Shown here one piece after another: positions 950-22,466 of a DNA stretch of 45,121 nucleotides (positions are counted from its first letter, which is position 1; every line of letters starts with the position of its first letter). The DNA lies in assembly GCA_028711995.1 (NCBI GenBank), contig JAQTRE010000011.1:1-45121 (forward strand), written 5' to 3'. A model generated the notes under the pieces. The model worked only from the letters and a program-made list of their open reading frames with translations, did no database searches and was not told the origin of the DNA. The position numbers and the translations under genes are program-made. The DNA comes from Dehalococcoidia bacterium (GTDB lineage Bacteria; Chloroflexota; Dehalococcoidia; SZUA-161; SpSt-899).

Positions 950-1531
950 ATGAAGAACAGACTATACAGGAACCAGCAGGGGATTACCGGCCTGGAGACG
1001 GCCATTATATTGATTGCTTTTGTGGTAGTGGCGGCAGTGTTCGCCTACTCCGTTCTTTCGGCCGGTCTGTTCGCCTCCGAGAAGAGCAGCGAAGCGGTCT
1101 ATAAAGGACTGGAGGAAGTCAAGAGCACCATCATTGTCGATGGCGCCCTCGTTGCCTACGAAGGCACCGGATGTGTGGATCGGATCACCTTCTCAGTCAG
1201 GCTGGCCCAGAAAGGAGACCCGGTTGATTTCACTCCGAACTCAGGACTGACCGCGGGCCAGAACAAGGTGGTTATTTCTTACCTGGATAAAGACCAGAAG
1301 CATGATGATTTGACCTGGACGCTGACACGGCTGGGAGCATGTGGCCCGGACTACCTGCTGGGTAATGACGAGCAATTTCAGATCACCATCAGCGGCCTTG
1401 AGGCGCTTCTGGACCCGGACCTCCAGGAGAATACAGATTTCTCCATAACTATGATGCCACCCCAGGGAGCATCGCTGACCGCAGAAAGAACTACTCCGCC
1501 GCACATCGATTCGGTGATGATCCTTCAATAA
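950..1531 (+). CDS. arlB: Archaellin (archaeal flagellin family), copy 1
   Basis: A filament subunit of archaellum type, 193 residues from the ATG at 950. This start gives a short basic leader (MKNRLYRNQQG), as in the paralogs; in-frame starts at 878 and 935 would lengthen it oddly. The leader ends in Gly followed by [20 protein letters not shown], a class III signal with Glu at +5 that would be cut by an ArlK/PibD-type prepilin peptidase, leaving the hydrophobic helix as filament core. The C-terminal part has the strands shared by all paralogs here: VVISYLDKDQ, DDLTWTLTRLG, the Gly-Asn-Asp-Glu loop and SLTAERTTPPHIDSVMILQ. The helix most resembles crenarchaeal archaellins as I remember them. 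No prepilin peptidase gene lies in the window. Confidence 0.88.
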   Translation: MKNRLYRNQQGITGLETAIILIAFVVVAAVFAYSVLSAGLFASEKSSEAVYKGLEEVKSTIIVDGALVAYEGTGCVDRITFSVRLAQKGDPVDFTPNSGLTAGQNKVVISYLDKDQKHDDLTWTLTRLGACGPDYLLGNDEQFQITISGLEALLDPDLQENTDFSITMMPPQGASLTAERTTPPHIDSVMILQ

Positions 1532-1595
1532 GATGGTTTGCCTGTGACTTACTCTGAAAACGGAGGTGGGGATGATATGTAAAAAGAGATCAACG

Positions 1596-1622
1596 CCAGG
1601 GCCCTTCAAAACCAGGCCCTGG
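1596..1622 (+). other. Hairpin between archaellin genes
   Basis: CCAGGGCC (1596-1603) and GGCCCTGG (1615-1622) form a perfect 8-bp stem with an 11-base loop, 65 bases after archaellin copy 1. No U-tract follows, so it is more likely to stabilise or attenuate the mRNA than to stop transcription fully. It could set different levels for the first archaellin and the later ones. Confidence 0.45.
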
Positions 1623-1748
1623 GCTAAAATAGCACCTAAACTCGATCCAGGGAGGTGTACCGATTACGATAACGACACTTGAACGGGAAAGAGACCCGAC
1701 GCCCTTACAGGGTTAGACAAGAAGATCAGAAAGAAAGGAGGACCAGAT

Positions 1749-2885: not shown

Positions 2886-2982
2886 GGATAGCATGAGCCG
2901 AAGGCTGTTTGTAATGGGGAAAGATAAAGAGACTCCGACCCCCGGCACTCACATTCCGGGAAGAATAGAGGGAGGAAATAAA

Positions 2983-3615
2983 ATGATGAAATTCCTAAAA
3001 AGGATGCAAAAGAATCAAAAAGGCATCACCGGGCTGGAAACAGCCATCATCCTGATTGCCTTTGTAGTAGTGGCGGCAGTGTTTGCCTATACCGTTCTAT
3101 CGGCCGGGCTTTTCGCCTCGGAGAAAAGCACTGAAGCGGTCTATTCCGGCTTGAAAGAAACAGGGAGCACCATAAAGCTTACGGGGCCGGTGATGGCCTT
3201 CCAGGATCCGGATGACACGGATCATGTGGGATGGATCAAGTTCACCTTGCAGAACGCCTTGAACGGGGAGCCGATCAACTTCACCCCGCCGACCAATGCT
3301 GCCGGACTGGCCGCGGCTGGAAGCGCCAATGTGGTGGTTCTGTCCTACTCTGACAGCAATCAGAGGATAGATGACCTCGCATGGTCGGTCATCAAGCTGG
3401 GCGATGCCGACGCGGATAACCTGCTGGACCCCGGCGAGAGATTTGAGATCGTCTGCACATCTCTAACGGGCGGCAGCATGTTCACCGACGTGCTCGCCAC
3501 TGACATGAGCGCATACACCAAGTTTAATATCGAGCTGAAACCGCCGACCGGCGCCGCTCTGGTCATTCAAAGAATGCTGCCGGCTCATATCGACCCGGTG
3601 ATGAACCTGAACTAG
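2983..3615 (+). CDS. arlB: Archaellin, copy 3
   Basis: An archaellin of 210 residues. The ATG at 2983 is chosen because GGAGG lies 7 bases upstream at 2971-2975 and because it gives the normal short leader MMKFLKRMQKNQKG; an upstream in-frame ATG at 2893 would add 30 non-family residues. After the Gly cleavage site comes [20 protein letters not shown]. The body carries IKFTLQNALNGEPINFTP, VVLSYSDSNQRIDDLAWSV and FNIELKPPTGAALVIQRM, and ends VMNLN. It has no insert and is the clearest minimal archaellin here, so it is a candidate major filament subunit. Confidence 0.9.
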   Translation: MMKFLKRMQKNQKGITGLETAIILIAFVVVAAVFAYTVLSAGLFASEKSTEAVYSGLKETGSTIKLTGPVMAFQDPDDTDHVGWIKFTLQNALNGEPINFTPPTNAAGLAAAGSANVVVLSYSDSNQRIDDLAWSVIKLGDADADNLLDPGERFEIVCTSLTGGSMFTDVLATDMSAYTKFNIELKPPTGAALVIQRMLPAHIDPVMNLN

Positions 3616-3662: not shown

Positions 3663-4424
3663 ATGCTTACAAAACTGATGCGTAAGATATATAAGGACCA
3701 GAAGGGCATCACCGGCCTGGAAACGGCCATCATTCTCATCGCCTTTGTGGTCGTAGCGGCAGTATTTGCCTATACCGTTCTATCCGCGGGGCTTTTTGCC
3801 TCGGAGAAGAGCAGCGAGGCGGTTTACAGCGGATTGCAGCAAACCCAGAGCACACTGGAGATGCGGGGGGGGATAACCGCCTATGCCAGTAACACCGGCG
3901 ATGCCCATGAGACGGCTGCCGAGGACGTGCATACCAGTGCTGATGGTGAGATCACTGTCGGCGCTTGTGTGACCCGATTGCAGTTCACTGTGGCCAACGT
4001 GCTGGGAGGAGAGCCAGTCGATCTGACACCCAACTACACGGCAACGACAGTGGATTCACCCTCCACCCTGGCCGCCTCCGGCTATAATGACAAGACCGTC
4101 ATCAGCTTCAGGGATCAGTACAACATCTTCCCGGAATGCGCCTGGACGATAGATTGGATCGGGCAGGCCAGCCAGGATAATCTGCTACAACCCGGCGAGA
4201 AGGCCATGATCACTGTATGGCTGATAGATCATCCCGACGCAAACGAATTCCACCTGAATGCCGCCGCAAACTCAGCCTTCTTCACAGATGCCGATGCGGT
4301 TGCCAGCAGGCTGGTGGATATCAATCACCAGTTCACCCTGGAAATCAAGTCCCAACAGGGAGCCGTTCTCACCTTGGAGAGAACCACCCCCGCCTTCTTG
4401 GATGCAGTGATGGATCTGCAGTAG
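3663..4424 (+). CDS. arlB: Archaellin, copy 4
   Basis: An archaellin of 253 residues. The ATG at 3663 follows AAGGAGGAAAAG. The leader MLTKLMRKIYKDQKG closely matches that of copy 2, followed by [20 protein letters not shown]. The body is longer than copy 3, with extra loops around residues 80-100 and 195-220. The C-terminal block reads HQFTLEIKSQQGAVLTLERT and ends FLDAVMDLQ. It lies 47 bases after copy 3 and is followed by a strong hairpin at 4471, which may end or reduce transcription of the first four archaellins. Confidence 0.89.
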   Translation: MLTKLMRKIYKDQKGITGLETAIILIAFVVVAAVFAYTVLSAGLFASEKSSEAVYSGLQQTQSTLEMRGGITAYASNTGDAHETAAEDVHTSADGEITVGACVTRLQFTVANVLGGEPVDLTPNYTATTVDSPSTLAASGYNDKTVISFRDQYNIFPECAWTIDWIGQASQDNLLQPGEKAMITVWLIDHPDANEFHLNAAANSAFFTDADAVASRLVDINHQFTLEIKSQQGAVLTLERTTPAFLDAVMDLQ

Positions 4425-5020: not shown

Positions 5021-5638
5021 ATGTTGGCAGAATTCATAAAGGGAAAAAGCATCACCCGGCTGGCACTATCCTTCATGCTGGTCGCCTTGCTGGGAGAATC
5101 AGCGTTGGTCGCCTACGGCACATTCTTCTATGAAGAGGATAAAGCAATTGTCTTTGCCGGCCCAGAGCAAAACAGCACCCTGCAGCTCAGGGGAGCCGTG
5201 CTGGCTAAAGCCGATCCCGCTCAGGGCTGTGTGGATGAGATGATTTTTACGGTAGCCCTGGCCGATGGCGCAGAACCGGTGAATTTCGCTATGACCCCGG
5301 ATGCCAATGCCGATGGCAAGTTGAATGATGAGACGGCCCCGATCCATACCGTGATGATCTCGTACGTTGATGCCGATCAACGAGTCGATGATCTCACATG
5401 GAGCTTTGCCGAATACGGCCCCGGCGACGAGGACACGCTTCTGGAATCCGGCGAGAACTTTCGTATTACCCTGGGGGCGGATAACAACGGACACTGCGGT
5501 CTGCTGCAAAACGCGCTCAGTCCTCAATTAGGGACATCCGCCCCATTCACCATCGAGGTGAAAACGCCCAATGGAGAAGTACTCCGTATAGAAAGGGTCA
5601 CTCCTGATGTTTATAGCCCGGTAATGAATCTGAGCTAG
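5021..5638 (+). CDS. Archaellin-like protein with degenerate class III signal
   Basis: A 205-residue protein starting at the ATG at 5021 behind CAGGAGAAAG. From about residue 45 it is a clear archaellin paralog: STLQLRGAVLAK, MIFTVALADGAEPVNF, VMISYVDADQRVDDLTWSF, ESGENFRITL, and FTIEVKTPNGEVLRIERVTP ending VMNLS. The N-terminus aligns with the paralogs but has lost the signal: the residue before the cut is Ser instead of Gly, position +5 is Ala instead of Glu (SITRLALSFMLVALLGESAL), and a Gly-Glu pair interrupts the helix. It would probably not be cut by the prepilin peptidase. It could be a membrane-held cap, base or anchor subunit, or a decaying copy; the intact frame favours function. Confidence 0.78.
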   Translation: MLAEFIKGKSITRLALSFMLVALLGESALVAYGTFFYEEDKAIVFAGPEQNSTLQLRGAVLAKADPAQGCVDEMIFTVALADGAEPVNFAMTPDANADGKLNDETAPIHTVMISYVDADQRVDDLTWSFAEYGPGDEDTLLESGENFRITLGADNNGHCGLLQNALSPQLGTSAPFTIEVKTPNGEVLRIERVTPDVYSPVMNLS

Positions 5639-5679
5639 TGTTACTTTGCCGGAGACGGCGTAACCGGAACGAGGTTGAA

Positions 5680-6861
5680 ATGTGTAACAAACTCATCAAC
5701 AGCATCCATCGTGATCAAAGGGGTATAACCGGATTGGAGACGGCGATTATTCTGATCGCATTCATAGTGGTAGCCTCTGTATTCGCCTACACTGTGCTTT
5801 CAGCGGGCCTGTTTTCGTCTCAGAAGGCAGAGGAAACCATTCATTCCGGAATTGGGACGGCCGAATCGACCATGAGCATCAAAGGGGGAAATGTCATCGG
5901 CTACACCGGTACTACCAATGGAGATGAGTGCGTAACCAAATTGTCGTTCATCGTCGCCAACGCTCTGGACTCCGCCAAGGCAATCGACCTGACGCCCCCT
6001 TATCATCTTAATTCCAGCGGAGCGCTGGTGGCTGGCCCCCCGGCGACATATGGGAGCGCCGTGATCAGCGATTGCGAGACTAACTGGACCGCAAGCGCCA
6101 ATGTTACCGCTGCTCTGGACTCTGCGGATACCAAAGAGGGATCAAACAGCGTCAAGCTGACGGTGGCCGATGGATTTACCACCGGATTGGCGGCATATTA
6201 CGCCTACACCGCGCCAGCACCTGAAAATGCCGTCACGGCGGCACGCGTACAACTCTGGATTAAGTCGAGCCTTTCCCAAACGGCAGGGAATATTCAGTTG
6301 CTTCTCTGCTCTGATGCAGCAGGAACAACCCCGGTGGCAACAGGAACGCTCGACATACCGGCATTGACTGCCAACGTATGGCAAGAAGTCTCTGTTGATC
6401 TGTCAGTTGCCACTGTTTTAAGCACAGACACCGTAAAATCGATCGGGATAAAGGCGGTGGCGGACCCGGGCGCCACGGTCATCAATGTGGATGACGTGAA
6501 CGCAGCAATTCTGACCACTGGCGGCAACAACAACAATGTCACCATGATCGCTTATGACGATGGAGTTCAAGTGATTGATGACGTGGCATGGACAGTGGAA
6601 ATCGTGGCCGGGATCGAAGAGGACGACGACTACCTGCTGGAGAACACGGAAAAGGCAACCATCACGGTCTGGCTGCAGAATTACGATGGGTCTGCCTATT
6701 CCAATGGCTCCGGGATATCCGATCCCTTTATTGACTCCAATACCAATCATCTAAAGAGCAATGATGCTTTTCACCTGCAGGTGATGCCTCCCAGAGGAGC
6801 CACACTGCTGATTGAGAAGCGAACGCCAGCCTATCTTGATCCGGTAATGCGCCTGTATTGA
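5680..6861 (+). CDS. arlB: Archaellin with inserted beta-sandwich domain, copy 5
   Basis: An archaellin of 393 residues. The ATG at 5680 follows GAGGTTGAA and gives the leader MCNKLINSIHRDQRG; the in-frame start at 5638 overlaps the previous stop and adds 14 Arg-rich residues. [20 protein letters not shown] follows the cleavage Gly. The body begins normally (VTKLSFIVANAL, IDLTPPYHL), then residues about 129-280 form an insert beginning SDCETNWTASANVT and ending TVINVDDVNAAIL. This insert resembles the one in copy 2 but lies after, not before, the first body strands. The usual end follows: VIDDVAWTVEIV, HLQVMPPRGATLLIEKRTP. Confidence 0.87.
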   Translation: MCNKLINSIHRDQRGITGLETAIILIAFIVVASVFAYTVLSAGLFSSQKAEETIHSGIGTAESTMSIKGGNVIGYTGTTNGDECVTKLSFIVANALDSAKAIDLTPPYHLNSSGALVAGPPATYGSAVISDCETNWTASANVTAALDSADTKEGSNSVKLTVADGFTTGLAAYYAYTAPAPENAVTAARVQLWIKSSLSQTAGNIQLLLCSDAAGTTPVATGTLDIPALTANVWQEVSVDLSVATVLSTDTVKSIGIKAVADPGATVINVDDVNAAILTTGGNNNNVTMIAYDDGVQVIDDVAWTVEIVAGIEEDDDYLLENTEKATITVWLQNYDGSAYSNGSGISDPFIDSNTNHLKSNDAFHLQVMPPRGATLLIEKRTPAYLDPVMRLY

Positions 6862-6939: not shown

Positions 6940-8133
6940 GTGGAGACCAATAAGAAAATCGACGAGCTGGAAAGCGAATTAAAGGTATTAAAGAACGAAG
7001 TGCAGAGCGTGCTCATCGATATTCGAGAGCATGTTCTATCCTACTATAAAAATCCCTTCCAGATGGTGAACCTCTCTCCCCCAAAAGGTGAGGGGGCCGA
7101 TAGCGCCACGAGCAGCACTAACACAAACGTAAGTGGGGGCAAGGAACAAGTCGTCACAGAGAAGCCCCCGGAAAGGAATGAACAGGAACAGGATAAAGGG
7201 GCCAAGATGGAAGATATCCAGGAAGGAACCAGCCAGTTGAAAGCCCTTATGGATCAGTTGGAACGAGAAAGGCAGGCATTGAAACAAGAACGCTTGAGAC
7301 CAGTGGCGGCAACTCCTGCACCGCTTCCAGAAGAACCGGTGCAGCCGGAAATAGCCGCTTCACCTGGCCCGGCCGCTCAATTCTCACAGCCTTCCCAGTG
7401 GGGCGGACAATCTATGCCCGGATCACAGCCACCTGGCGCTGGAGCTGAGATTTTCGAAGGGCCTTCTGCCCGACCGGTGGCCAGTTCGCGAAAGAGAGCA
7501 ACGGGGAGAAGAGAGCGCTTCGACGAATCAGAAGGAGAAGACAGGGGGAATTGGAGTGAGCCAAGAGTCAGCAGTAGCTATCGAGCTGAGGCAAGAGGCG
7601 CAAGATTGTCTGATGAAAGGCAAGATGAAAGAAGGCCTGGAGTTGACTCAAGAGGCGGCAGTAGCTATCGAGCTGAGGCAAGAGGCGCAAGATTGTCTGA
7701 TGAAAGGCAAGATGAAAGAAGGCCTGGAGCTGAGTCAAAAGACGGCAGTAGCTATCAAGCTGAGGCAAGGGACACAAAAACACCTGAGGAGGGAATTCCA
7801 GCTGTTGACGGGAAGCAAATGAATCTACTGACCCTGGTGGGGTTGGTGAGATGGGTAGAGAGAAGCATCAAGAAGGTCGGCAAGGAGAAGGTGGAAGCCA
7901 TTGTGGAGATATATCGGACGGCAGGATATCTCCCCGAAACTCACAAAGAAATTATTGCCCAGATCATCCGCTTGGCCGAAGGCGAAAAGCCGGAGGGGCC
8001 GGTGACAATGGGCGCCTCTATCCTGGTCCTGCTCCAACTCGATAGCCTTCTGGGGGGGAAATTCCAAACTGAATCATCCATCATCTCCACCCTCTTTAAT
8101 GAAGACGGAGGCTATCCGTGGACAAAGCAATAA
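6940..8133 (+). CDS. ArlD/E-domain archaellum accessory protein
   Basis: A 397-residue cytoplasmic protein. The GTG at 6940 follows CCGGGAG. Residues 1-35 form a coiled coil (KKIDELESELKVLKNEVQSV); a second helical stretch of about 85-110 precedes a Pro-rich and then highly charged linker with tandem repeats. Residues about 294-397 resemble the archaellum accessory ArlD/E domain (LLTLVGLVRWVERSIKKVGK, then VEIYRTAGYLPETHKEII). In Euryarchaeota, ArlC/D/E couple the motor to chemotaxis through CheF. No separate ArlC or CheF is seen here, so this protein may be the sole adaptor, possibly to the stressosome downstream. Assignment rests on remembered family pattern, not a search. Confidence 0.7.
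   Translation: METNKKIDELESELKVLKNEVQSVLIDIREHVLSYYKNPFQMVNLSPPKGEGADSATSSTNTNVSGGKEQVVTEKPPERNEQEQDKGAKMEDIQEGTSQLKALMDQLERERQALKQERLRPVAATPAPLPEEPVQPEIAASPGPAAQFSQPSQWGGQSMPGSQPPGAGAEIFEGPSARPVASSRKRATGRRERFDESEGEDRGNWSEPRVSSSYRAEARGARLSDERQDERRPGVDSRGGSSYRAEARGARLSDERQDERRPGAESKDGSSYQAEARDTKTPEEGIPAVDGKQMNLLTLVGLVRWVERSIKKVGKEKVEAIVEIYRTAGYLPETHKEIIAQIIRLAEGEKPEGPVTMGASILVLLQLDSLLGGKFQTESSIISTLFNEDGGYPWTKQ
7573..7773 (+). repeat. 87-base tandem repeat inside the ArlD/E-domain gene
   Basis: Two almost identical 87-base units (7573-7659 and 7660-7746) plus a partial third encode a 29-residue charged unit starting SSYRAEARGARLSDERQDER. The second frame over the same DNA is also open, because the unit length is a multiple of three. 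The repeat probably extends a flexible linker and may vary in copy number between strains. Confidence 0.85.
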
Positions 8134-8657
8134 TCACCGTCCTGCTCATCATTGCCGGGGTGGTATGCGTGACCGTCATGTTCAACGGCATTTTCCCAGC
8201 AATCACCAAGGGAAGCGATGCCGTTGTGAGCATGGCATCACAGGTGGATGATCGCATTAAGAGCCAGGTTAGCATCGTCCACGCCGTCAGCGAGTACGAC
8301 CCGGATAGTCCCGGCGAATGGAATGATGTGAACGGCAATGGCTCTTTTGACGTATTCGCTTGGGTCAAGAATGTGGGCGATTCACGCATACTGGCCGTCA
8401 ATGGCTGTGACGTTTTCTTTGGCGCCGAGGGAAATTTTCAAAGAATATCCCATGATGACTATGTAAGCAGTGGATTCCCCTACTGGCAAGATACGATTGA
8501 GGACACCGCCACCGAGTGGGGCAGAGGGGAAACCCTCAAGATAACGATTGTATTCGCGGATAGTTTTGCCAGCTCCGGAATGGCAGCGGGGACGACCTAC
8601 CTGATGAAAGTGATCATTCCCAATGGCATTTCCGACGAAATATATTTCAGCCTGTAG
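8118..8657 (+). CDS. arlG: ArlG-like archaellum stator protein
   Basis: A 179-residue protein beginning at the GTG at 8118 (GGAGG upstream), overlapping the previous gene by 16 bases, so probably translationally coupled. One N-terminal membrane helix (residues about 4-27, IITVLLIIAGVVCVTVMF) is followed by an amphipathic stretch and an extracytoplasmic beta domain with VFAWVKNVGDSRILAVNG, the N-T/V-G loop typical of ArlF/ArlG proteins. In archaea ArlG and ArlF sit around the motor and bind the S-layer as a stator. The helix ends GIFPAITKGSDAVVSMASQV, which suits ArlG better than ArlF. What such a stator would bind in a bacterial envelope is unknown. Confidence 0.68.
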   Translation: MDKAIITVLLIIAGVVCVTVMFNGIFPAITKGSDAVVSMASQVDDRIKSQVSIVHAVSEYDPDSPGEWNDVNGNGSFDVFAWVKNVGDSRILAVNGCDVFFGAEGNFQRISHDDYVSSGFPYWQDTIEDTATEWGRGETLKITIVFADSFASSGMAAGTTYLMKVIIPNGISDEIYFSL

Positions 8658-8658
8658 G

Positions 8659-8713: not shown

Positions 8714-9724
8714 ATGGAAAACGCAATCGTCGCTATATTCGCCATCGGCCTGATATTGTTTGCCATGCTGGTGCTTTCTCAGGTCTCCCTGTCTTCGACG
8801 GATACGATCGCCACAGCCTGGCAACAGCGGGCAGATACGTCAGCCGACATATCAAAAACCCGCATCTCATCCCTTGGCGTTGAAACTCAGAACGGGGGCT
8901 CGATTATCAACGTGACGTTGAAGAATGAGGGCACAACCAAGATAGCGGACTTCGACCACTGGGACGTCATTCTTCAATACGACCACTCGTCCAGTGAGAT
9001 CATCGAAATCCTGGCGGATAATTTTGAGACCGGGACGCTGGACAACTGGACACAGGATGCCTACAACGACTGGGATGTCAGCACCGAGCGATTCAGCGAG
9101 GGCAGCTATGCGGCACACGTGGATGACGCAGATGCCGATTCGATTCTCACTTTAAAAGACGCCATCGATTTCAGCCAGACCAGCGGATGGGTGCCGTACA
9201 CCTTGAGTTTCTCCTGGTTCATTGAAAACGGCCTGGATGCAGGGGAATATCTGGCGCTGGATATCTGGAACGGTACTGCCTGGGACCCGATAGACCAGCT
9301 CGACGGGGATGCCACCCCATCGGAGGAGAACCAGTGGTTCGATGAGGTGATTGACATTACTCCTTATACCGTCAGCGACTTCAGGATTCGTTTTCGCGGA
9401 CGTATGACCGGCCAGAATGAGGATGCCTTTGTGGATTCGGTGAGCATAACCGCCACACCTGACCCTTCTACCGGTCATATCGAACGGCTGACCTATGCCG
9501 AAAGCTCTCCGGGAAACTATGAATGGACAAGTCGAGGTATCTATCTGAATGCCGGCGCCAGCGAGCCGGAAATGCTTGAACCGGGGATTTTAAATCCCGG
9601 TGAGGAGATGATCATTCAACTGCAGGTCATTCCGGCGATCGGCGCTAATACGACAAATCAGGTGATAATATCGGCCCCCAACGGGGTCTCGACTTCGGCC
9701 ATTTTTGCCGGTCCGGCATCTTAA
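8714..9724 (+). CDS. arlF: ArlF-like protein with inserted beta-sandwich domain
   Basis: A 336-residue protein; the ATG at 8714 follows AAAGAGCTG. Residues about 4-24 form a membrane helix (IVAIFAIGLILFAMLVLSQV), then TATAWQQR-like and GGSIINVTLKNEGTTKIADF, the extracellular ArlF strand with its N-E-G loop. Residues about 98-253 are an insert starting DNFETGTLDNWTQDAYNDWD and ending FVDSVSITATPDPST, rich in strands and aromatic residues as in MAM- or carbohydrate-binding-like jelly rolls. The normal body resumes at ERLTYAESSPGNYEWTSRG. The next gene is its insert-free paralog, which fixes the limits of the insertion. ArlF acts as an external stator in archaea. Confidence 0.7.
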   Translation: MENAIVAIFAIGLILFAMLVLSQVSLSSTDTIATAWQQRADTSADISKTRISSLGVETQNGGSIINVTLKNEGTTKIADFDHWDVILQYDHSSSEIIEILADNFETGTLDNWTQDAYNDWDVSTERFSEGSYAAHVDDADADSILTLKDAIDFSQTSGWVPYTLSFSWFIENGLDAGEYLALDIWNGTAWDPIDQLDGDATPSEENQWFDEVIDITPYTVSDFRIRFRGRMTGQNEDAFVDSVSITATPDPSTGHIERLTYAESSPGNYEWTSRGIYLNAGASEPEMLEPGILNPGEEMIIQLQVIPAIGANTTNQVIISAPNGVSTSAIFAGPAS

Positions 9725-11100: not shown

Positions 11101-11108
11101 GGGCGCAA

Positions 11109-11528: not shown

Positions 11529-11548
11529 TCGTCCCGCGGGAGGATAAC

Positions 11549-11579: not shown

Positions 11580-11652
11580 CAAAAATAACCCGGGGATTAA
11601 ACAATATTCAGTCGGGGTTTCCCCGAATCATTAAGAGGAGAGAGGGAACAAG

Positions 11653-13672: not shown

Positions 13673-13778
13673 GCAAAGCAGGATATCTCCTGCCCGGGGA
13701 TATATCGGAACTTGAGCGGCTTTTCCTTCAGCAGTTCGGAGCGGCCCATCAAGCATTCAACATTCAAGGAGTGAAGGG

Positions 13779-14180: not shown

Positions 14181-14223
14181 TTGTCCGGAATGCTGCAATA
14201 CTGAAGGAAAAACAGGGGGTAAA

Positions 14224-15633
14224 ATGCGACAACAAGAAGCAACAAAAGCGAATCCAAAAGTGAAGGGTGCGTCCTTTAGAGACTATGGCTCAGATATGCC
14301 CGCAGCGAAGCTGGATAGCATCTATGCCGCAATGGTAAACCTGGCCGATGACGGATTGGTGATCATCATAGACGGGATTTTCGTGTTTGTAAACTCCACA
14401 TTTGCCCGAATGACCGGATATGATACGACAGGTCTTATGGGGCAATCTTATCTAAAGGTCATCGCTCCAAGATGGCAGAAGCTTGTTAGGCGAGAGTATG
14501 AAAGCAAGATATCAGAAAGGAGAAGTGCCTCCAATTATCGCATAGAGCTTGTTGGCAGAAACAACCAGACCGTTCCTGTGGAAGTCCGATTGGGGAAAGT
14601 CAATCACAACGGAACCAGGGCAGACATGGTCATTGTCAGGAATATTACCGAGCACAAACGGATGGAGCAGGAAATACAGGAAAGAAACCGGCAACTGGAC
14701 GCCCAGAACGAGGAGCTCAAAACAAGGCTCGATGAACTGGCCAAATCCAGGGCATTCAGCGAGGGATTGCTCAAGAGCATGATCGATGGATTCTGCGTCT
14801 TTGACCTTGAGGGGAGATTAATTGACATCAATGAAGCTCTCTTGAAAATGACCGGCTTCAAGAAGGAGGAGATTATAGGGCTTCAGTTTGAGCAGATAAT
14901 TGCTCAACTGACTGCTCCGGCCGAGGCAGAGAAGATGTCCGCCGGGATCAAACGGTTCATGGCCGGAGAGCCGGTGGGGATCATACGGATGCTCATCACT
15001 AACAAAGGCGGCAATCAGCTCACGATATCGATTGCCAACAGTGTGGTAAAAGATAACAAAGGCATCCCGACAATGTGGTTTGCAGTCATAAGGGATGTCA
15101 CGGAGCAAGAACAGGCCGAGGAAAAAATTCAGGCGCAGTATCAGGAAATTGAGGTATACTCTCACGAACTGGAGGCAGCCAATGATGAGCTGCAAGCGTC
15201 TCAAGAAAAACTACTGGCGGCCAATCGAGCGCTCACGGTAAGTCAGGAAGAGCTTTCCACTCCGGTGATCCAGGTCTGGGATAAGATACTGGCTCTGCCC
15301 GTCATCGGCCTGGTGGATAGCAACCGCGCCCAGACCATTATGGACGTCCTCCTCTCACGCATCGTCGAGACTCAAGCCGAAATGGTCATCCTCGATATCA
15401 CCGGCGTCTCAACCGTCGATACCCAGGTCGCCAATCACCTCATCAAGACCGTGGAAGCCGCCAATATGCTGGGAACCGAGTGCGTCATCACCGGTATCAG
15501 ACCGGAGACAGCCCAAACCATGATCCGCCTCGGCCTGGAAATGGATTCATTCCCCACCAAGAGAACCCTCCGCGACGGATTGATGTTTGGCCTCAAGAAA
15601 CTGGGCTTTGAGGTGAAAAGGGCCGCCCGATGA
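14224..15633 (+). CDS. rsbR: RsbR-like stressosome sensor with two PAS domains, coiled coil and STAS, copy 2
   Basis: A 469-residue protein starting at the ATG at 14224 behind AGGGGGTAAA. Residues about 30-140 and 175-295 are PAS domains (DDGLVIIIDGIFVFVNSTFA; GFCVFDLEGRLIDINEALLK), joined by a coiled coil (about 143-175) and followed by another (about 295-340). Residues about 344-469 are the STAS domain, matching copy 1 almost completely, with VSTVDTQVA and RPETAQT threonines. The sensor halves of the two RsbR proteins differ widely while the STAS ends are the same, so both can enter the same mixed stressosome with different inputs. Confidence 0.9.
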   Translation: MRQQEATKANPKVKGASFRDYGSDMPAAKLDSIYAAMVNLADDGLVIIIDGIFVFVNSTFARMTGYDTTGLMGQSYLKVIAPRWQKLVRREYESKISERRSASNYRIELVGRNNQTVPVEVRLGKVNHNGTRADMVIVRNITEHKRMEQEIQERNRQLDAQNEELKTRLDELAKSRAFSEGLLKSMIDGFCVFDLEGRLIDINEALLKMTGFKKEEIIGLQFEQIIAQLTAPAEAEKMSAGIKRFMAGEPVGIIRMLITNKGGNQLTISIANSVVKDNKGIPTMWFAVIRDVTEQEQAEEKIQAQYQEIEVYSHELEAANDELQASQEKLLAANRALTVSQEELSTPVIQVWDKILALPVIGLVDSNRAQTIMDVLLSRIVETQAEMVILDITGVSTVDTQVANHLIKTVEAANMLGTECVITGIRPETAQTMIRLGLEMDSFPTKRTLRDGLMFGLKKLGFEVKRAAR

Positions 15634-16013
15634 CAGGAGGACTTACATGCTGCAAGTAGAACAAATACCCATACTCAAAATCGATGATTTCCTGATCACC
15701 TCTATCCAGGTTGCCCTCCATGACAAACTGGCTTTGTCGTTCCAGGATGGCGTCCTGCGCAAGATAGAACACACAAACGCCAAAGGGCTCATCATCGATA
15801 TCACCGCCGTGGATGTGGTGGATAGCTTTATTACCAGAATTCTGGTCGAAACAGCCGCTATGGCCAAGATGATGGGCACAAAGACGGTGCTGGTAGGACT
15901 TCGCCCTGACGTTGCCATTACCCTCACCGAATTCGGTATGAGACTGAAAGGGATTCAAACGGCACTCGATCTCGAAAGAGGGTTGGCTCTATTAAGAAAA
16001 GAGATCGAAAGGG
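15242..16013 (+). repeat. Direct repeat, second copy (rsbR STAS end plus rsbS)
   Basis: Second copy of the repeat at 12881-13652, offset 2361 bases. Visible differences include agctt for agctc near the start, ACTGG for ACTCG about 45 bases in, and ccaag for ccaga in rsbS. The pattern is expected of a recent duplication or of gene conversion that keeps the assembling parts alike. Confidence 0.9.
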
Positions 16014-16048
16014 ATGGGGATTGGGTGGATCAGAATGAGAATCTATAG
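15647..16048 (+). CDS. rsbS: RsbS-like stressosome scaffold (STAS), copy 2
   Basis: A 133-residue STAS protein, nearly identical to the copy at 13286 through residue 110, with Ser60 in VDVVDSF. The tail differs (ERDGDWVDQNENL). The start and its ACAGGAGGAC site are the same as in copy 1. No rsbT follows this copy; the next gene is the kinase-like protein at 16114. Confidence 0.92.
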   Translation: MLQVEQIPILKIDDFLITSIQVALHDKLALSFQDGVLRKIEHTNAKGLIIDITAVDVVDSFITRILVETAAMAKMMGTKTVLVGLRPDVAITLTEFGMRLKGIQTALDLERGLALLRKEIERDGDWVDQNENL

Positions 16049-16113
16049 ACAGGATTGAGATGACAAACCCTTCGCGTCGGCGCTCAATTTATCAAGAGAT
16101 GCGGTAAGGAACA

Positions 16114-17160
16114 ATGAACAGCGATAGGCTTCCGGAATTGCAGGCCAGATACACTGAGGCGTTGCGCAACTATGTGCAGACTCACAGTGAAAACGCCTTG
16201 TTCAGCATATCCAAACTGAGCAAGGAATTCATGAGTGAAGGCCTTGGCCCGGATGATGTCACCAGCATGCATTCTGTAGCCATGGGCAGAATCGTCAACG
16301 AACTGAGCGGCGAGTCGGCCATGAGCGCTTTTCATAGCTCTACGGAGCCACTGCTGGAAATCATGATGAACTACGCCATGTTCTACCATACGCATATGGA
16401 GAAACATAGACAGCAGATTGCCGAATTTGAGGGCGGCGACAGGGTGAAGGAGATGGAGAAACTGGCCAGCGTTGGCCTGATCTTGCTGGGTATGACCAGC
16501 GAGATGGTGATTCAAATGGAATCGGTTACCGCATACACGAATATGATGGCCCAGGGCGGGATAAGCAAAGCCAAAGAGCTCTCACAGATAGTCATGCAAG
16601 AGGCAACACAGTTACAAGAGATGCTTAAGACGGCATTCCTGTACTCCCGAAAAATGGCCAAGCGGACAGATGACAGAATGTCAGTCGTTTTGAACGACCT
16701 CCTGGTAGAATCCATCGACGTGGTGAGGAATGCGGTCAGGCTTGACTCTGTTGCCATTCAGACCAACTACAGGATTTCGGTCAAAATAAACGTCAATCCC
16801 GTCGAAATGCAGCAGGCATTGGTGAACCTGATTGCCAGCGCCATTAATATCATCCAGGGCAGCGGCAGTTTAATGATCTCTACTACCATCGATGAGAGTG
16901 GTGCACGAGAGATTGTGGCCTTAAAGATCATTTCCAGCAAGAACGGTCCGGCCAAACGTCCGGATATATTCAGTCTGCCGATGGCAAAATCAGACGTCGG
17001 ATTGAACATCGCCGCCAGCATCATAAGAAGAAACGGCGGTGCGATTGATGTTGTTAGCGGTGAAAATGGCATGCATATCACGGTTCGCATGCCGGTGGCA
17101 AGTAAAGCAAATGACTTCATCGGAAGCGTTGCCATGTCGGCAAGGCAGCCTGTAGCCTAG
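16114..17160 (+). CDS. RsbU-type N-terminal domain fused to a degenerate histidine-kinase-like module
   Basis: A 348-residue soluble protein. Residues about 5-90 (LPELQARYTEALRNYVQTHS, EFMSEGLGPDDVTSMHSVAM) resemble the N-terminal RsbT-binding domain of RsbU. Residues 110-190 align with a HisKA dimerisation helix, but the phospho-acceptor His is Ser129 (SVGLILLGMTSEM for the usual GxAHE). A GHKL ATPase-like end follows with an N-box-like MQQALVNLIASAINII and the late motif DVGLNIAASIIRRNGGAIDV; the G1 Asp-Gly box is not obvious. It could be a pseudo-kinase that receives RsbT and passes the signal on without phosphotransfer, replacing RsbU. No output domain is attached. Family resemblance is by eye only. 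Confidence 0.72.
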   Translation: MNSDRLPELQARYTEALRNYVQTHSENALFSISKLSKEFMSEGLGPDDVTSMHSVAMGRIVNELSGESAMSAFHSSTEPLLEIMMNYAMFYHTHMEKHRQQIAEFEGGDRVKEMEKLASVGLILLGMTSEMVIQMESVTAYTNMMAQGGISKAKELSQIVMQEATQLQEMLKTAFLYSRKMAKRTDDRMSVVLNDLLVESIDVVRNAVRLDSVAIQTNYRISVKINVNPVEMQQALVNLIASAINIIQGSGSLMISTTIDESGAREIVALKIISSKNGPAKRPDIFSLPMAKSDVGLNIAASIIRRNGGAIDVVSGENGMHITVRMPVASKANDFIGSVAMSARQPVA

Positions 17161-17184
17161 CCATTTGACCCGCTGTGAGGAGAT

Positions 17185-17763
17185 ATGGATTTAGGAATAG
17201 CAACCAGACCGAAGGCAAACGAAACCTCAAATGGCGATGCCTATTTTGTCGGTGAGCACGAGAGCACTGTGCTCTTTGCCATGATCGATGGACTGGGACA
17301 TGGGGAGCAAGCAAATGACGCTGCCAACAAAACCACAGCGTTTCTGGCCAGTCATCTGCAGCAGGACCTGGTATCGCTGATAAAGGGATGCCATCAGGAG
17401 TTGCGCGGGAGCCGAGGCGCTGTAATCGGCATCGCTTCAATTGACAGGCAGACCCAGTCGCTCAAGTATGCGGGAGTCGGAAACATCGAGAGCAGAATCG
17501 TCACAAGAGCAGTGACAGAAGGGATCAAGGTATCGCATCTGATATCCATGAATGGGATCGTCGGCTGTAACCTGGGAAGAGTGAACGCTATGGAGTATCC
17601 CTTTCACGTCGGGGATATCATCGTCATGTTCAGTGACGGTATTTCTTCCAGGCTCAACCTCTCCGAATTCCTGCCGGTCCAGAATCTGCAGGCAGCCGCC
17701 GAGAAGATTCTGATCAAACACGGCAAGGATGATGACGCCACCGTCCTGTTGGCAAGGTTGTGA
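17185..17763 (+). CDS. rsbX: RsbX-like PP2C serine phosphatase
   Basis: A 192-residue single-domain PPM/PP2C phosphatase starting at the ATG at 17185 behind GAGGAGAT. Metal-binding acidic residues are visible in NGDAYFV, AMIDGLGHGE, MFSDGIS and KDDDATVL. The short length, lack of a sensor domain and position after RsbR-S-T fit RsbX, which removes phosphate from RsbR and RsbS and resets the stressosome. With it, every core part of the switch except a true RsbU/anti-sigma branch is present. Confidence 0.9.
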   Translation: MDLGIATRPKANETSNGDAYFVGEHESTVLFAMIDGLGHGEQANDAANKTTAFLASHLQQDLVSLIKGCHQELRGSRGAVIGIASIDRQTQSLKYAGVGNIESRIVTRAVTEGIKVSHLISMNGIVGCNLGRVNAMEYPFHVGDIIVMFSDGISSRLNLSEFLPVQNLQAAAEKILIKHGKDDDATVLLARL

Positions 17764-17848: not shown

Positions 17849-18562
17849 GTGACAACAAAGGCAAAAGCAGAAGAAAAACTGATCACCTCGGGCAGCGCCG
17901 AGATCGATAGAAAGATGGGAGGCGGCATTCCCAAGGGATCCCTGACGCTCATAGAAGGCCAATCGGATGCCGGTAAATCCGTTCTTACCCAGCAAATCAT
18001 CTGGGGATCTCTCAATACCGATTGCAGGGTCACTCTGTTCAGTACCGAGAGCACCATCAAGAACCTGATGAAACAGCTCGATAGCCTCGGGCTGCATGTC
18101 ACCGATTATCTCCTGCTGGATCGACTCAGGGTGTATCCGGTCCAACTGGCAAAGGGCGGGGTCGATATAAACTTCGCCTTGAAGATCATGTCTGAGGCCT
18201 TTCACCGTGAAGCAGATGCCGAGATGATCATCATCGACTCTCTGACCTCTTTTGTTACCAACGTGCCAGTGGAATCTACCATTGCCTTTTTTGAGGACTG
18301 CAAGAATCTTTGCAACGAGGGCCAGACCATTCTCATCGTCATCCATGCATACGCCTTCAGCGAAAGTACGCTGGTGCGTGTGCGCTCCATGTGTGACGCT
18401 CACCTGAACCTGCGAATTGAGCAGCTGGGAGACAAGCTGCTGAAAGTGCTCGAAGTAAGCAAGATAAGAGGCGCTACCCGAAACACGGGCAATATAGTGG
18501 CTTTTGAGATAGAGCCTGGATGGGGAATGCGAATCATTCCTGTGTCCAAGGCGCAAGTATAG
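17849..18562 (+). CDS. arlH: Archaellum ATPase regulator ArlH (KaiC-like)
   Basis: A 237-residue RecA/KaiC-fold protein. The Walker A loop is GQSDAGKS (residues 37-44) and the Walker B strand MIIIDSLTSF. It begins ITSGSAEIDRKMGGGIPKGS, the usual ArlH opening, and ends in the ArlH/KaiC beta region (VLEVSKIRGATRNTGNIVAF). The GTG at 17849 is the only start giving the normal N-terminus. In archaea ArlH forms a ring under the membrane that binds ArlI and ArlJ, and its autophosphorylation state gates assembly. It follows the stressosome genes by 85 bases, which makes it a possible target of that switch (inference). Confidence 0.9.
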   Translation: MTTKAKAEEKLITSGSAEIDRKMGGGIPKGSLTLIEGQSDAGKSVLTQQIIWGSLNTDCRVTLFSTESTIKNLMKQLDSLGLHVTDYLLLDRLRVYPVQLAKGGVDINFALKIMSEAFHREADAEMIIIDSLTSFVTNVPVESTIAFFEDCKNLCNEGQTILIVIHAYAFSESTLVRVRSMCDAHLNLRIEQLGDKLLKVLEVSKIRGATRNTGNIVAFEIEPGWGMRIIPVSKAQV

Positions 18563-18646: not shown

Positions 18647-20518
18647 ATGCCCGAACTTCTGTTGCCATTTGAAGCCAAGAAAGTCGATTTGAAAGGTGCA
18701 GACCTTCTTGACGCCGGGCTGTACCCCTTGCTGCCAAAAGGACTAAAAGAGGCATCGAGGGCTAAGCCTTTCCTGTTGGAATACCTGCACATGTTGCCCA
18801 TTGAGGAAATCGGTATTCCAAAATACTATGAGACGCTTCCCAGAAGTCTTTCCGATGAGAAGAATCCCAATCTGATTTACCCGGTTGAGGGAGGGGTTTT
18901 CGTTCACATCTATCCTGAACCTACGGACGAAAGGCATACCTACGTCTCCGTTGAGCCCAGTCTCACCATCAACATCGATGCGATCATGCCCAAGATCGAA
19001 GAAGCCCTGCTGGACTATACCGATGAATTTGATTCCCTCGATACGGACGAGGAAAAGACACAAGGTTTCCTGAGAGCCCTGGACAAGATCTGCTATTCCA
19101 AGGTCAGCAAAACAGGCAAGTCGTCTAAAGAAGACGCCAAAGACAATGCCAAAGGAAACGGCAACGGGAATAATGGGGTAACCATCGGAGAAGACAAGCT
19201 CACCGGATCCAAAGGCAAGTGGTTTGGGAAAAGCGACAAATCCAAGGACAAAAAAAACGGCGCATCTTCGGGAAGAAGTAGATTGTTTACCAGAGCAGCC
19301 AAGACCAGGATCGAATTGACGCCTGACGAGATCGAGGCGGTCAAATATCTCGTCGTTCGGGAGAAAGTTGGGGTAGGTGTCCTGGAACCTCTTGTGCATG
19401 ATATCTATGTCGAGGACGTCAGCTGCAGCGGGCTCGGGCGTATTTTCATCGAGCATAAGGTATTCAAAAGCGTGAAGACCGCCATATCCTTTAACAACAT
19501 GCCAGAGCTGGATAACTTTGCCCTGAGACTCTCCGAACGTTCCAAAAGGCCGGTTACGCTGCACAGCCCCATTTCAGATGCCACTCTTCCGGATGGTTCC
19601 CGAATCAATATCGTATACGGCGAAGATGTCTCCAGAAGGGGAACCAACTTTACCATTCGAAAGGCTATGGGCACTCCCACCAGCATCATGGAAATATGCG
19701 GATTCGGCACGATGACCTATCAGATGGCAGCCTATATGTCTCTGGTAATCGAGCATGATTTGAATGTGTTTATCGCCGGTGAGACGGCATCCGGAAAGAC
19801 AACCACAATCAATGCCCTGACCGCTTTCCTGCTACCTGAAACCAAGATCGTGAGCATCGAGGATACACCGGAATTGGTCGTCCCTCACAAAAACTGGATT
19901 CGCGAGGTATCCAGAGAGGCCAAGGATGGGAGAGGGGGCGCAGTCGGCATGTTCGATTTACTCAAGGCGGCCTTGCGGCAACGGCCCAATATGATCGTCA
20001 TCGGTGAGATCAGAGGCGCAGAAGGACTGATCGCTTTCCAGGCTATGCAAACCGGCCACGGCGTGATGGCCACCTTCCATGCTGCTTCCGTGGAGAAACT
20101 CATCCAGCGTCTCACCGGGGACCCCATCAATGTCCCCAAGGCTTATATCGATTGCCTGAACGTCGTCCTCATCCAATGCGCAGTCAGACTGCCCAGCGGA
20201 AAATCGGCCAGACGCGTCATCAGCATCAGTGAGATCGTAGGGTATGATTCCGTATCAAACTCTTTCTCCTTTATCCACACCTTCATGTGGAACCAGTCAA
20301 AAGACGTATTCGAGTTTCCCGGGGATAAGAACAGTTACATCCTGGAGGAGAAGATAGCCCCAAAGAGAGGGCTTCCTCCGGAAAAGAAACGAAACATCTA
20401 TAACGAACTCAACAGAAGAGCCAGAATTCTGGAGCGCTTACACAAAGAAAAAGGGGTTACTGATTTCTATGAGCTTCTTGGGGTCCTTAACACTGCGCGC
20501 AAGGAAGGGGTTTTCTAA
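18647..20518 (+). CDS. arlI: Archaellum motor ATPase ArlI
   Basis: A 623-residue type II/IV secretion superfamily ATPase that drives assembly and rotation. The N-terminal part (to about residue 150) matches ArlI-type domains (ELDNF comes later with the linker). Residues about 152-212 are a Lys/Gly/Asn-rich low-complexity insert. The core has Walker A GETASGKT (378-385), the acidic EDTPELVVPHKNW, Walker B MIVIGEIRG (449-457) and the His box TGHGVMATFHAAS. The ATG at 18647 follows TTGGAGTAAG. ArlI-specific features such as IYVEDVSCSG and VEHDLNVFIAG-type strands separate it from GspE/PilB, and the lack of the C-terminal tetra-Cys zinc motif supports this. Confidence 0.92.
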   Translation: MPELLLPFEAKKVDLKGADLLDAGLYPLLPKGLKEASRAKPFLLEYLHMLPIEEIGIPKYYETLPRSLSDEKNPNLIYPVEGGVFVHIYPEPTDERHTYVSVEPSLTINIDAIMPKIEEALLDYTDEFDSLDTDEEKTQGFLRALDKICYSKVSKTGKSSKEDAKDNAKGNGNGNNGVTIGEDKLTGSKGKWFGKSDKSKDKKNGASSGRSRLFTRAAKTRIELTPDEIEAVKYLVVREKVGVGVLEPLVHDIYVEDVSCSGLGRIFIEHKVFKSVKTAISFNNMPELDNFALRLSERSKRPVTLHSPISDATLPDGSRINIVYGEDVSRRGTNFTIRKAMGTPTSIMEICGFGTMTYQMAAYMSLVIEHDLNVFIAGETASGKTTTINALTAFLLPETKIVSIEDTPELVVPHKNWIREVSREAKDGRGGAVGMFDLLKAALRQRPNMIVIGEIRGAEGLIAFQAMQTGHGVMATFHAASVEKLIQRLTGDPINVPKAYIDCLNVVLIQCAVRLPSGKSARRVISISEIVGYDSVSNSFSFIHTFMWNQSKDVFEFPGDKNSYILEEKIAPKRGLPPEKKRNIYNELNRRARILERLHKEKGVTDFYELLGVLNTARKEGVF

Positions 20519-22046
20519 GGAGAATACTTCCGATGAAGTAAACCTGCCGAAACTGGCCTCCGGCAAGCAGATCATCCAGAAGAAGAGGGTATCGAGTACA
20601 AGCAACCAGGAGCTATTGTACTTTGACCTTTTCTATCAGCTGTCGTACATGGCTGCCATTTCTACGGCGGGAATCAGCCGGGATCGTATTTTCGATTACT
20701 CTGCTCAGCTTTCCGGTAAGGCAGCAGTGTATTTCAAAGAAATCCAGCGCATAGCCGTTCACCTCGGCTATGACTATGCGGACGCATGCCGGCTGGAAGG
20801 GGAGTCTGTGGATGACGAAATGGTGCGCACGATGTTGCTCCGCCTGTCCGGGTCGATGAGTTCCGGCGAACGCGAATCTGAGTTCTTCGGCCGCGAGGCC
20901 GATGTTTTTGGAACCAGCTACGGCGACCAATATGAACGTAAACTGGACACCTTGAAACTGTGGACTGATGCCTTCAGCGCGCTGATTATCTCTGCTGTTC
21001 TGGTGATCATCATCGGCGTCGTCTCAACCATGATATACAAAACGGACCGGATATTCACCCTGGGACTGGTAGGGCTCACTATTGGTATCTCCATCGGGGG
21101 GACATGGCTCATATCATTGATGTCCCCCAAAGAACAGGTACCGCTCCAGCAACCGAGCTCCGCCGAGCAGAAGCAAATCCGACTCTTGATGATGGCGCTC
21201 ATTCCTACTTCAATCGTTGTCGCGCTTCTGTTGCTGGCAAGCGATGCCGGTATGGGATGGGCAATGTTGATAGGCGGGTTGATCCTCTTCCCTATAGGCC
21301 ATGTAGCGGTGAAGGATGACAAGCTGATCGCTAAAAGGGACGGTGAGATAGGAGCTTTCCTGCGCTCGCTGGGAGGAGTAACGACTGCCATAGGCGCCAC
21401 TGTCACGGAGGGCATCTGCCGGATGGACTTGCGCGCCATGCCTGTTCTGAGAGAAGGGACTACGCACCTGAAGAAGCGGCTGGAAATAGGCATTATGCCT
21501 TCCATCTGCTGGAAACGATTTGTAGTGGAGACGGGAAGCGTAGTAGTCAACCGAAGCGTAGGCATGTTCCGTGATGCCATGGCCTTAGGCGCAGGTGCAG
21601 AAGATGCCGGCAAGCGGGCTTCTGCTTATGCCGTAAAACTGGATCTCTTGAGAGCCAGAAGAAGACTGATAACCAAGCCCTTTGGAATGCTCACTTTCGC
21701 CATGCACGGCGCAGTTGTACTGCTTCTGGTTTTTGTGACCGAGGTCATGATGCGATTTGGCTCCATGATAATGAACATTGAGATGGACATCCCCGGGTCA
21801 GCGTCGTCCTCTGCCGTAGGGGGTTATTTCTCTTTTAACTTCGCTGGACTGCAATTACTGACTTCGCTGGTAATGCCGGTGATCATCGTGCTGACTGTAG
21901 TCAATGCTATGGCGCCCAAGCTGGCTGAAGGGGGACACAAGTGCAAGTTCTTTTACAACCTGTCCATCACCATGTGCATGTCAGGGATATGCTTGATCAT
22001 TGTACCCTATCTGGTAACGATGGTTTTCGGCAGCGTCGGGGGATGA
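20469..22046 (+). CDS. arlJ: Archaellum platform membrane protein ArlJ
   Basis: A 525-residue polytopic platform protein (T2SSF/GspF fold twice) on which ArlI turns. Membrane helices lie at about residues 167-190, 194-217, 238-280, 407-430, 459-480 and 496-520, separated by a long basic cytoplasmic loop. The N-terminal soluble part (SYMAAISTAGISRDRIFDYS) and EYERKLDTLKLWTDAFSALI-like entry match ArlJ. The ATG at 20469 overlaps arlI by 50 bases. A Shine-Dalgarno (AAGGAG, 20517-20522) lies just past the arlI stop but no in-frame ATG, GTG or TTG follows at a suitable distance, so the earlier start is kept. Confidence 0.88.
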   Translation: MSFLGSLTLRARKGFSKENTSDEVNLPKLASGKQIIQKKRVSSTSNQELLYFDLFYQLSYMAAISTAGISRDRIFDYSAQLSGKAAVYFKEIQRIAVHLGYDYADACRLEGESVDDEMVRTMLLRLSGSMSSGERESEFFGREADVFGTSYGDQYERKLDTLKLWTDAFSALIISAVLVIIIGVVSTMIYKTDRIFTLGLVGLTIGISIGGTWLISLMSPKEQVPLQQPSSAEQKQIRLLMMALIPTSIVVALLLLASDAGMGWAMLIGGLILFPIGHVAVKDDKLIAKRDGEIGAFLRSLGGVTTAIGATVTEGICRMDLRAMPVLREGTTHLKKRLEIGIMPSICWKRFVVETGSVVVNRSVGMFRDAMALGAGAEDAGKRASAYAVKLDLLRARRRLITKPFGMLTFAMHGAVVLLLVFVTEVMMRFGSMIMNIEMDIPGSASSSAVGGYFSFNFAGLQLLTSLVMPVIIVLTVVNAMAPKLAEGGHKCKFFYNLSITMCMSGICLIIVPYLVTMVFGSVGG

Positions 22047-22097
22047 AAGACTTCGACCTTGAGCACTCGCGGGAAGACCCGCCAAGAGGAGGTTGAA

Positions 22098-22466
22098 ATG
22101 GGCCTAACAGACAAACTGAAAAAGAAGTCAAAAGATGCCGAAAAGCCTGAGGAAATCGGCGGAATCATAGCAGATACAAAGTTGACGGAACGTCCAATCA
22201 GCCCTACGAAAGGGGATGTGGCACTGCCTGATATCCCTCCGGCCCCATTACCTCAGGGCCTGCCACAAGCCCCCCCTGAAGCGCTGAAAGAGCCGCCAAA
22301 AGAGAAGAAAACCGGTGGACTTTCGGCAATGGATATCTTTGCCGCTGAAACCGCAGAGTCAGATGAAGGTAATCAACTTGCCAAACAATTACACGAGGTC
22401 GATATCAACGACCTGCTGACAGAGTGCAAGGAAATAGCCGCCAAGCTCCGTCAGCCAATCACCTGA
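22098..22466 (+). CDS. Small proline-rich protein at the end of the archaellum operon, unknown
   Basis: A 122-residue soluble protein. The ATG at 22098 follows GAGGAGGTTGAA, 51 bases after arlJ, so it is probably co-transcribed. Residues 1-20 are Lys-rich (MGLTDKLKKKSKDAEKPEE), the middle is Pro-rich (PDIPPAPLPQGLPQAPPEAL), and the end is a helical acidic segment (LSAMDIFAAETAESDEGNQL, then VDINDLLTECKEIAAKLRQ). I do not recognise the family. Its place beside the motor genes makes it a candidate adaptor or a substitute for ArlC/ArlX, but that is a guess. Confidence 0.7.
   Translation: MGLTDKLKKKSKDAEKPEEIGGIIADTKLTERPISPTKGDVALPDIPPAPLPQGLPQAPPEALKEPPKEKKTGGLSAMDIFAAETAESDEGNQLAKQLHEVDINDLLTECKEIAAKLRQPIT

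Follow-up and report, generated by a model that had tools for sequence, protein, structure and literature searches.

We analysed a 45,121-base stretch of DNA from a Dehalococcoidia bacterium (hereafter the window, which is the whole of contig C11 of a 3.3 Mb metagenome-assembled genome in 240 contigs, 96% complete with 4.5% contamination) and found that its archaellum gene cluster carries a stressosome module between the stator gene arlF and the motor regulator gene arlH. We propose, with a probability of roughly 0.6, that this stressosome controls the archaellum, which judging by gene context would be a mode of control so far undescribed. A literature search returned no paper pairing a stressosome with an archaellum, or archaell- terms with partner-switching. 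The bacterial archaellum itself is confirmed here but is already known, and the new part is the regulatory architecture set upon that known structure. Our surveys covered 393 genomes of the class and 80 named archaellum loci from Chloroflexota and archaea.

A stressosome module between arlF and arlH

From the end of arlF (10281) to the start of arlH (17849) the window runs for 7.6 kb, an interval that is mostly shorter than 300 bases in the 56 other genomes where both genes are visible. The first-pass annotation of this DNA, in reading the cluster as an archaellum, overlooked the content of this interval (10321-17763), which consists of a transglutaminase-like gene and a stressosome module rather than archaellum structure. 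The module spans 11097-17763 and contains two RsbT-like proteins, two RsbR, two RsbS, a fusion of an RsbU_N domain to a kinase region, and RsbX:

11097-11528, + strand, RsbT-like kinase a (HATPase_c_2, 2e-8; altered ATP-lid motif)
11653-13272, + strand, RsbR-like sensor a, three PAS domains and a STAS domain (Pfam PAS, STAS)
13286-13672, + strand, RsbS-like scaffold a (STAS, 4e-11; DSF serine kept)
13779-14180, + strand, RsbT-like kinase b (HATPase_c_2, 1e-12; SpoIIAB structures, 7e-6; motifs intact by inspection)
14224-15633, + strand, RsbR-like sensor b, two PAS domains and a STAS domain (solved RsbR, 3e-31, in the STAS domain)
15647-16048, + strand, RsbS-like scaffold b (solved RsbS in the PDB, 6e-33; DSF serine kept)
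16114-17160, + strand, putative stressosome output protein, RsbU_N domain plus degenerate histidine-kinase region (PF08673, 3e-14)
17185-17763, + strand, RsbX-like phosphatase of the PP2C/SpoIIE type (PF07228, 9e-9; DGLGHG, SDG and DDAT motifs)

Both RsbR threonines are present in copies a and b (VDT, AQT). The RsbR/RsbS part is duplicated over 783 bases at 96% identity, and the two RsbR STAS domains are identical at 125 of 125 residues whereas the PAS parts differ, so that a single kind of core seems to receive input from two sensors. The putative output protein begins with the RsbT-binding domain of RsbU (RsbU structures in the PDB, 1e-5) and ends in a region that matches histidine kinases (ZraS, 4e-10). 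Its phospho-acceptor histidine is absent, being replaced by serine here and by asparagine in both orthologues, and inspection of the ZraS alignment showed that the D-x-G-x-G motif and the ATP-lid glycines are missing as well. Without the acceptor histidine and, in that alignment, the G-box residues, the protein does not fit a true sensor histidine kinase, and we read it as a predicted pseudo-kinase adaptor. A structure model with a predicted local distance difference test (pLDDT) score of 52 again retrieved histidine kinases from the PDB, which repeats the sequence result only.

We next consider how widely this arrangement occurs. Two genomes of a sister genus (G567 and G574) keep the order RsbU_N-kinase, RsbX, ArlH, ArlI, with Rsb genes 53-55% identical to those of the window and about 1 base separating rsbX from arlH. 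Among the 80 named loci, no relative of RsbS, RsbT, RsbX or the RsbU_N protein was found in the archaellum cluster; locus L159 gave one weak RsbT-like match (2e-5) in a long open reading frame on the other strand. A genome from a third genus of the window's own family (G490) encodes a lone PAS protein between the transglutaminase gene and arlH (L080:9924-10322), which is 45% identical to the first PAS domain of RsbR a and perhaps represents either a relic or the ancestral condition.

Within its own genome, the stressosome is apparently the only one. RsbX is the sole match to the SpoIIE phosphatase family, four strong STAS matches all lie in the archaellum locus (with one weak match elsewhere), and HATPase_c_2 exceeds its cut-off elsewhere only in a second RsbTa on contig C3 (L102:15223-15654; 87% identical over 469 bases). 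The similarity takes in the very end of the transglutaminase gene, which makes the archaellum locus the probable source of the C3 copy. Since the genome shows no other SpoIIE phosphatase, strong STAS protein or, above cut-off, HATPase_c_2 protein apart from this RsbTa copy, a SigB-type cascade is unlikely; no parts of an RsbU phosphatase/RsbV/RsbW cascade were found, sigma factors lying outside the search, and we accordingly set a SigB-type output aside.

Taken with the conserved phosphosites, the set of RsbR, RsbS, RsbT, RsbX and an RsbU_N protein resembles RSTX modules such as B. subtilis RsbRST and Vibrio vulnificus RSTX (PMC9237108). The identification of the individual parts is secure; the module is very probably a real RSTX stressosome, and its genes predict a megadalton RsbR-RsbS-RsbT complex. 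Unlike known modules of this kind, it has two R-S-T sets with differing PAS sensors and identical STAS domains, its RsbU_N protein bears a degenerate kinase, and it sits inside an archaellum cluster with no SigB-type cascade found, within the same limits of search.

Proposed control of the archaellum and its alternatives

We propose that a dedicated stressosome built into the archaellum gene cluster would serve as its control unit. The PAS-STAS RsbR sensors and the RsbS scaffold would hold RsbT until a signal leads RsbT to phosphorylate both and depart. Released RsbT would then bind the RsbU_N domain of the 16114-17160 protein, and this kinase-like scaffold, devoid of the catalytic histidine, would act on the neighbouring KaiC-like ArlH. 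RsbX would reset the stressosome and perhaps act on ArlH as well, and the outcome under stress would be that archaellum assembly or rotation is started, stopped or reversed. The binding of RsbT to RsbU_N and the reset by RsbX are described for known modules (PMC9237108), and in archaea the unphosphorylated ArlH hexamer binds ArlI and is released by autophosphorylation (PMC8978795).

The arrangement of the genes is consistent with this proposal. The module lies on the same strand as the archaellum genes, between arlF and arlH, and its last two genes stand beside arlH in two genera; by analogy, the position before arlH appears to serve signalling input in a sister clade too (see below). From this we infer an action of the module on the archaellum, exerted via ArlH; for ArlH as the target, the comparative evidence brings us a little short of even odds.

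Several points weigh against control by the stressosome. The argument for it is one of gene context, and RsbR, RsbS and RsbT genes adjoin an archaellum in one genome only, because the G567 and G574 contigs end there. The family of the RsbU_N protein is small (3 genomes only), with no further close orthologue among the 393 genomes of the class. G490 has an archaellum and lacks the module, which shows that an archaellum can exist without one. RsbT a carries GGGLCGGLMC at the position of GGGLGIGLPG in RsbT b and looks degenerate in its ATP lid. Finally, resetting the stressosome may be all that RsbX does, and the kinase-like region of the 16114-17160 protein could bind something quite different.

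The stressosome might instead govern expression of the archaellum genes rather than the motor, working through a regulator encoded elsewhere and deriving feedback from its operon position. We consider this somewhat unlikely. Archaellum expression is conditional in Litorilinea aerophila (PMC12488501), and the stressosomes of other systems target transcription or second messengers (PMC9237108, PMC10014275); against this, the module contains no sigma factor or DNA-binding regulator, and no RsbV/RsbW-like cascade was seen in a genome whose sigma factors were not searched.

It is also conceivable, and in our judgement unlikely, that the stressosome is a passenger or general stress unit within the archaellum cluster, with other targets such as second-messenger enzymes or transcription and merely co-expressed with its neighbours. 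RSTX modules do have many downstream partners (PMC9237108), stand-alone modules in the same class (L074, L075) combine RsbU_N with a PAS-kinase or with GGDEF-EAL, and G490 manages without the module. A passenger would, however, have to adjoin arlH through its last two genes in two genera that have diverged to 53-55% identity, and its output protein is encoded in the archaellum cluster, where no other partner is encoded.

A narrower version would make RsbX, alone or with the RsbU_N protein, an ArlH phosphatase, the remaining module timing its release. That rsbX adjoins arlH in both genera, that RsbX is the genome's only SpoIIE phosphatase and that archaeal ArlH autophosphorylates would all fit, but RsbX is standard in RSTX modules as a feedback phosphatase, which explains its presence without ArlH, and this version presupposes that the ArlH of the window would autophosphorylate too. 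We regard this version as quite improbable.

The archaellum locus and its bacterial setting

The remaining genes of the cluster are as follows:

878-1531, + strand, archaellin 1, arlB-like (PF01917, E 2e-24; true start probably downstream of 878)
1749-2885, + strand, archaellin 2, arlB-like (PF01917, E 6e-17)
2893-3615, + strand, archaellin 3, arlB-like (PF01917, E 6e-26)
3663-4424, + strand, archaellin 4, arlB-like (PF01917, E 4e-22)
5021-5638, + strand, archaellin-like, degenerate N-terminus/signal motif (PF01917, 2e-5)
5638-6861, + strand, long archaellin with an insert of ~170 residues (PF01917, 5e-17)
6940-8133, + strand, ArlCDE-like switch-complex protein (BLAST relatives and position in archaeal loci)
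8118-8657, + strand, ArlG stator (NCBIfam ArlG, 4e-5, below cut-off; 66% identical gene in G490)
8714-9724, + strand, ArlF stator with a beta-rich insert of ~160 residues (NCBIfam ArlF and Pfam FlaF_Ig-like, below cut-off)
9745-10281, + strand, ArlF stator without the insert (NCBIfam ArlF and Pfam FlaF_Ig-like, below cut-off)
10321-11100, + strand, transglutaminase-like protein (PF01841, 3e-26; 60% identical in G490, at the same place)
17849-18562, + strand, ArlH, KaiC-like motor regulator (NCBIfam FlaH, 2e-81, above cut-off; Walker A intact)
18647-20518, + strand, ArlI motor ATPase (NCBIfam archaellum motor FlaI, 1e-190, above cut-off)
20469-22046, + strand, ArlJ platform protein (NCBIfam ArlJ, 2e-113, below cut-off)

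All main genes from 878 to 22466 lie on the + strand, and it is practically certain that they form an archaellum locus. Five archaellins (878, 1749, 2893, 3663 and 5638) exceed the PF01917 cut-off, and all five carry the class III signal motif GITGLETAI, cleavage at which is a prediction from sequence. Counterparts of 5021-5638 and 5638-6861 are both kept, in the same order, in G490. The protein at 6940-8133 has no Pfam match itself; its BLAST relatives occupy the same place in archaeal loci (3e-16 to 1e-5), and of these the L182 protein matches Arch_fla_DE strongly and the others weakly. The stator order is of the arl2 type, with G before F, the two being called by weak family matches, position and fold. 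ArlH falls just below the cut-off of the NCBIfam ArlH family (3e-60), the broad FlaH subfamily being the one exceeded, and ArlJ relatives are in place in every sister locus surveyed. The profile searches thus bear out, some of them below cut-off, the archaellins and the ArlG-, ArlF-, ArlH-, ArlI- and ArlJ-like proteins that the first-pass annotation had listed on one strand, and BLAST relatives and position point to its ArlD/E-like protein.

A structure model of the 8714 ArlF fits the solved FlaF of S. acidocaldarius (Foldseek, 6e-6). Carbohydrate-binding modules matched its insert weakly in a part of the model with low confidence, and no Pfam family was found for the insert. Beta-rich inserts of ~160-170 residues occur in this protein (8714-9724) and in the archaellins 1749-2885 and 5638-6861, and an ArlF of another locus (L114:8132-9268) has a cadherin-like/Ig C-terminal extension; the inserts and the extension are possibly adaptations to a bacterial envelope.

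To place the motor ATPase, we built a tree of 78 ATPases by a quick search, which leaves the exact archaeal sister unresolved. All archaellum-type ArlI of Chloroflexota, the window's included, form one clade beside archaeal ArlI with a Shimodaira-Hasegawa-like approximate likelihood ratio test (SH-aLRT) support of 97, and the named relatives in the window's ArlI clade are mostly Dehalococcoidia or Chloroflexi. Nine Tad-like ATPases from Chloroflexota form a separate clade (support 100), which led us to reject a Tad or type IV pilus ATPase, the outcome that the first-pass annotation had named as one that would overturn its reading. Several Dehalococcoidia loci carry tandem ArlI pairs (L040:13075-16566, L043:13324-16813, L112, L116, L117, L122, L124), the first and second copies of which mostly group separately in the tree, so that the duplication looks old.

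Archaellum loci in Chloroflexota have been reported from SAR202 (PMC10444878), and a working archaellum of L. aerophila, with a cryo-electron microscopy structure of the filament and swimming, was published in 2025 (PMC12488501), where the arl2-type order is also described for Chloroflexota archaella. The guarded mention of such loci in the first-pass annotation is thereby substantiated by both papers; its reading of an archaellum locus in a bacterial chromosome stands, and the novelty it implied does not. As in these published cases, archaellin, ArlCDE-like and ArlG/F/H/I/J genes lie on one strand in arl2 order, the bacterium has no FliM gene, and ArlI belongs to the same clade. Unlike them, the window has a seven-kilobase stressosome insert between arlF and arlH, a transglutaminase-like gene, and an ArlF and two archaellins with inserts; the main texts of PMC12488501 and PMC10444878 mention no such features. 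We conclude that the locus is predicted to encode a Chloroflexota-type archaellum acquired from archaea, with an assembled filament and swimming as likewise predicted outcomes.

The bacterial setting of the locus is evident from the other genes of the contig:

37.9-44.0 kb, bacterial 23S and 16S rRNA genes, on the same contig as the archaellum locus
37.9-44.0 kb region, tRNA-Met, downstream of the archaellum genes

The contig 16S, whose classification had been suggested as a check, is 92% identical to that of a genome of the same family and at most 87% identical to others of the class. G+C content runs from 0.50 to 0.55 along the contig, and the tetranucleotide make-up of the archaellum genes correlates with that of the remaining contig at 0.94. 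In three further genomes of the family ArlI is 71-73% identical, and the order of the neighbouring archaellum genes is shared as far as the contigs reach; in a single-contig relative (G030), the archaellum locus lies within the chromosome. A chimera of archaeal and bacterial DNA, which had been named as grounds for refutation, or a module duplicated by assembly error, might be suspected in a genome of 240 contigs with 4.5% contamination, an archaeal-looking contig (C57) in the same bin and a 783-base repeat in the module, but uniform composition, the 16S and the sister loci led us to reject chimera or contamination, and the repeat copies differ at 29 sites as well as in their sensor parts and are therefore two genes, which leaves this explanation exceedingly improbable. 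Downstream of the archaellum genes, 23230-24942 encodes a protein that joins an FKBP-type isomerase domain to leucine-rich repeats.

Contig C57 (L104) encodes an archaeal-type IV pilin, a FlaK-like peptidase, an ArlI-like ATPase, KaiC, and a CheA nearest the haloarchaeal model. Its peptidase was considered as the missing ArlK and set aside, given its occurrence in 1 of 393 class genomes, its archaeal-looking neighbours and the contamination of the bin. The set is unique among these genomes and so perhaps represents archaeal contamination, or otherwise a second archaeal transfer.

ArlH as an input point and the protein after arlJ

In five Chloroflexota loci, from a sister clade of the ArlI tree, a receiver domain is fused to the N-terminus of ArlH:

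L109:8871-9944, receiver-ArlH
L110:4481-5551, receiver-ArlH
L115:8831-9901, receiver-ArlH
L134:8168-9235, receiver-ArlH
L152:8910-9980, receiver-ArlH

In L109 and L134, genes for Hpt, response-regulator and hybrid-kinase proteins lie just upstream of the fusion. The main text of PMC12488501 mentions neither an ArlH fusion nor a receiver. These gene arrangements suggest ArlH as the point where signals enter the archaellum in Chloroflexota, and the simplest reading would be that ArlH is controlled through Ser/Thr partner-switching here and, in the sister clade, through two-component signalling.

The genome has a full chemotaxis cluster (receptors, CheW, a CheY-like receiver, CheA, CheB, CheR, CheD and a CheX-like protein), and no FliM was found in it. 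CheF is reported absent from Chloroflexota in PMC12488501, which expects another component. The archaeal link through CheF and ArlCDE (PMC8978795) likewise places a control input near ArlH, and the window has an ArlCDE-like protein; unlike that link, the input in the window looks like partner-switching, and that of the sister clade like a receiver fused to ArlH.

One further gene follows arlJ directly:

22059-22466, + strand, conserved uncharacterised protein with a C-terminal motif L-x3-[DE]-[IV]-x2-L-L

Of the loci that extend far enough, 27 of 30 from Chloroflexota (for example L043:18315-18971 and L122:13264-14220) and 1 of 43 from archaea encode a relative of this protein less than 1 kb beyond arlJ, and there are weaker likenesses in another Methanosarcina locus and a Methanomicrobiales locus. 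The profile, for the C-terminal part, was built from these same loci and iterated over four rounds, which makes its E-values optimistic; independent support comes from the constant position. The spacing of the motif equals that of the FliM N-terminal LSQxEIDALL of Chloroflexota, and in E. coli the FliM N-terminal motif is the CheY-docking peptide. We offer the protein as a candidate FliM-like CheY-docking protein, as a lead only, such patterns arising easily in short helices.

Together, these observations lead us tentatively to picture an archaellum cut off from CheF and rewired at ArlH, by a stressosome and pseudo-kinase here and by receiver fusions elsewhere, perhaps with a FliM-like CheY-docking protein after arlJ. 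PMC12488501 leaves open how an archaeal motor is controlled in a bacterium, and the stressosome beside arlH, the receiver-ArlH fusions and the conserved protein after arlJ are candidates for the answer. If our proposal is true, the stressosome would act on a rotary motor and not merely on transcription or second messengers, a novel type of output for stressosomes.

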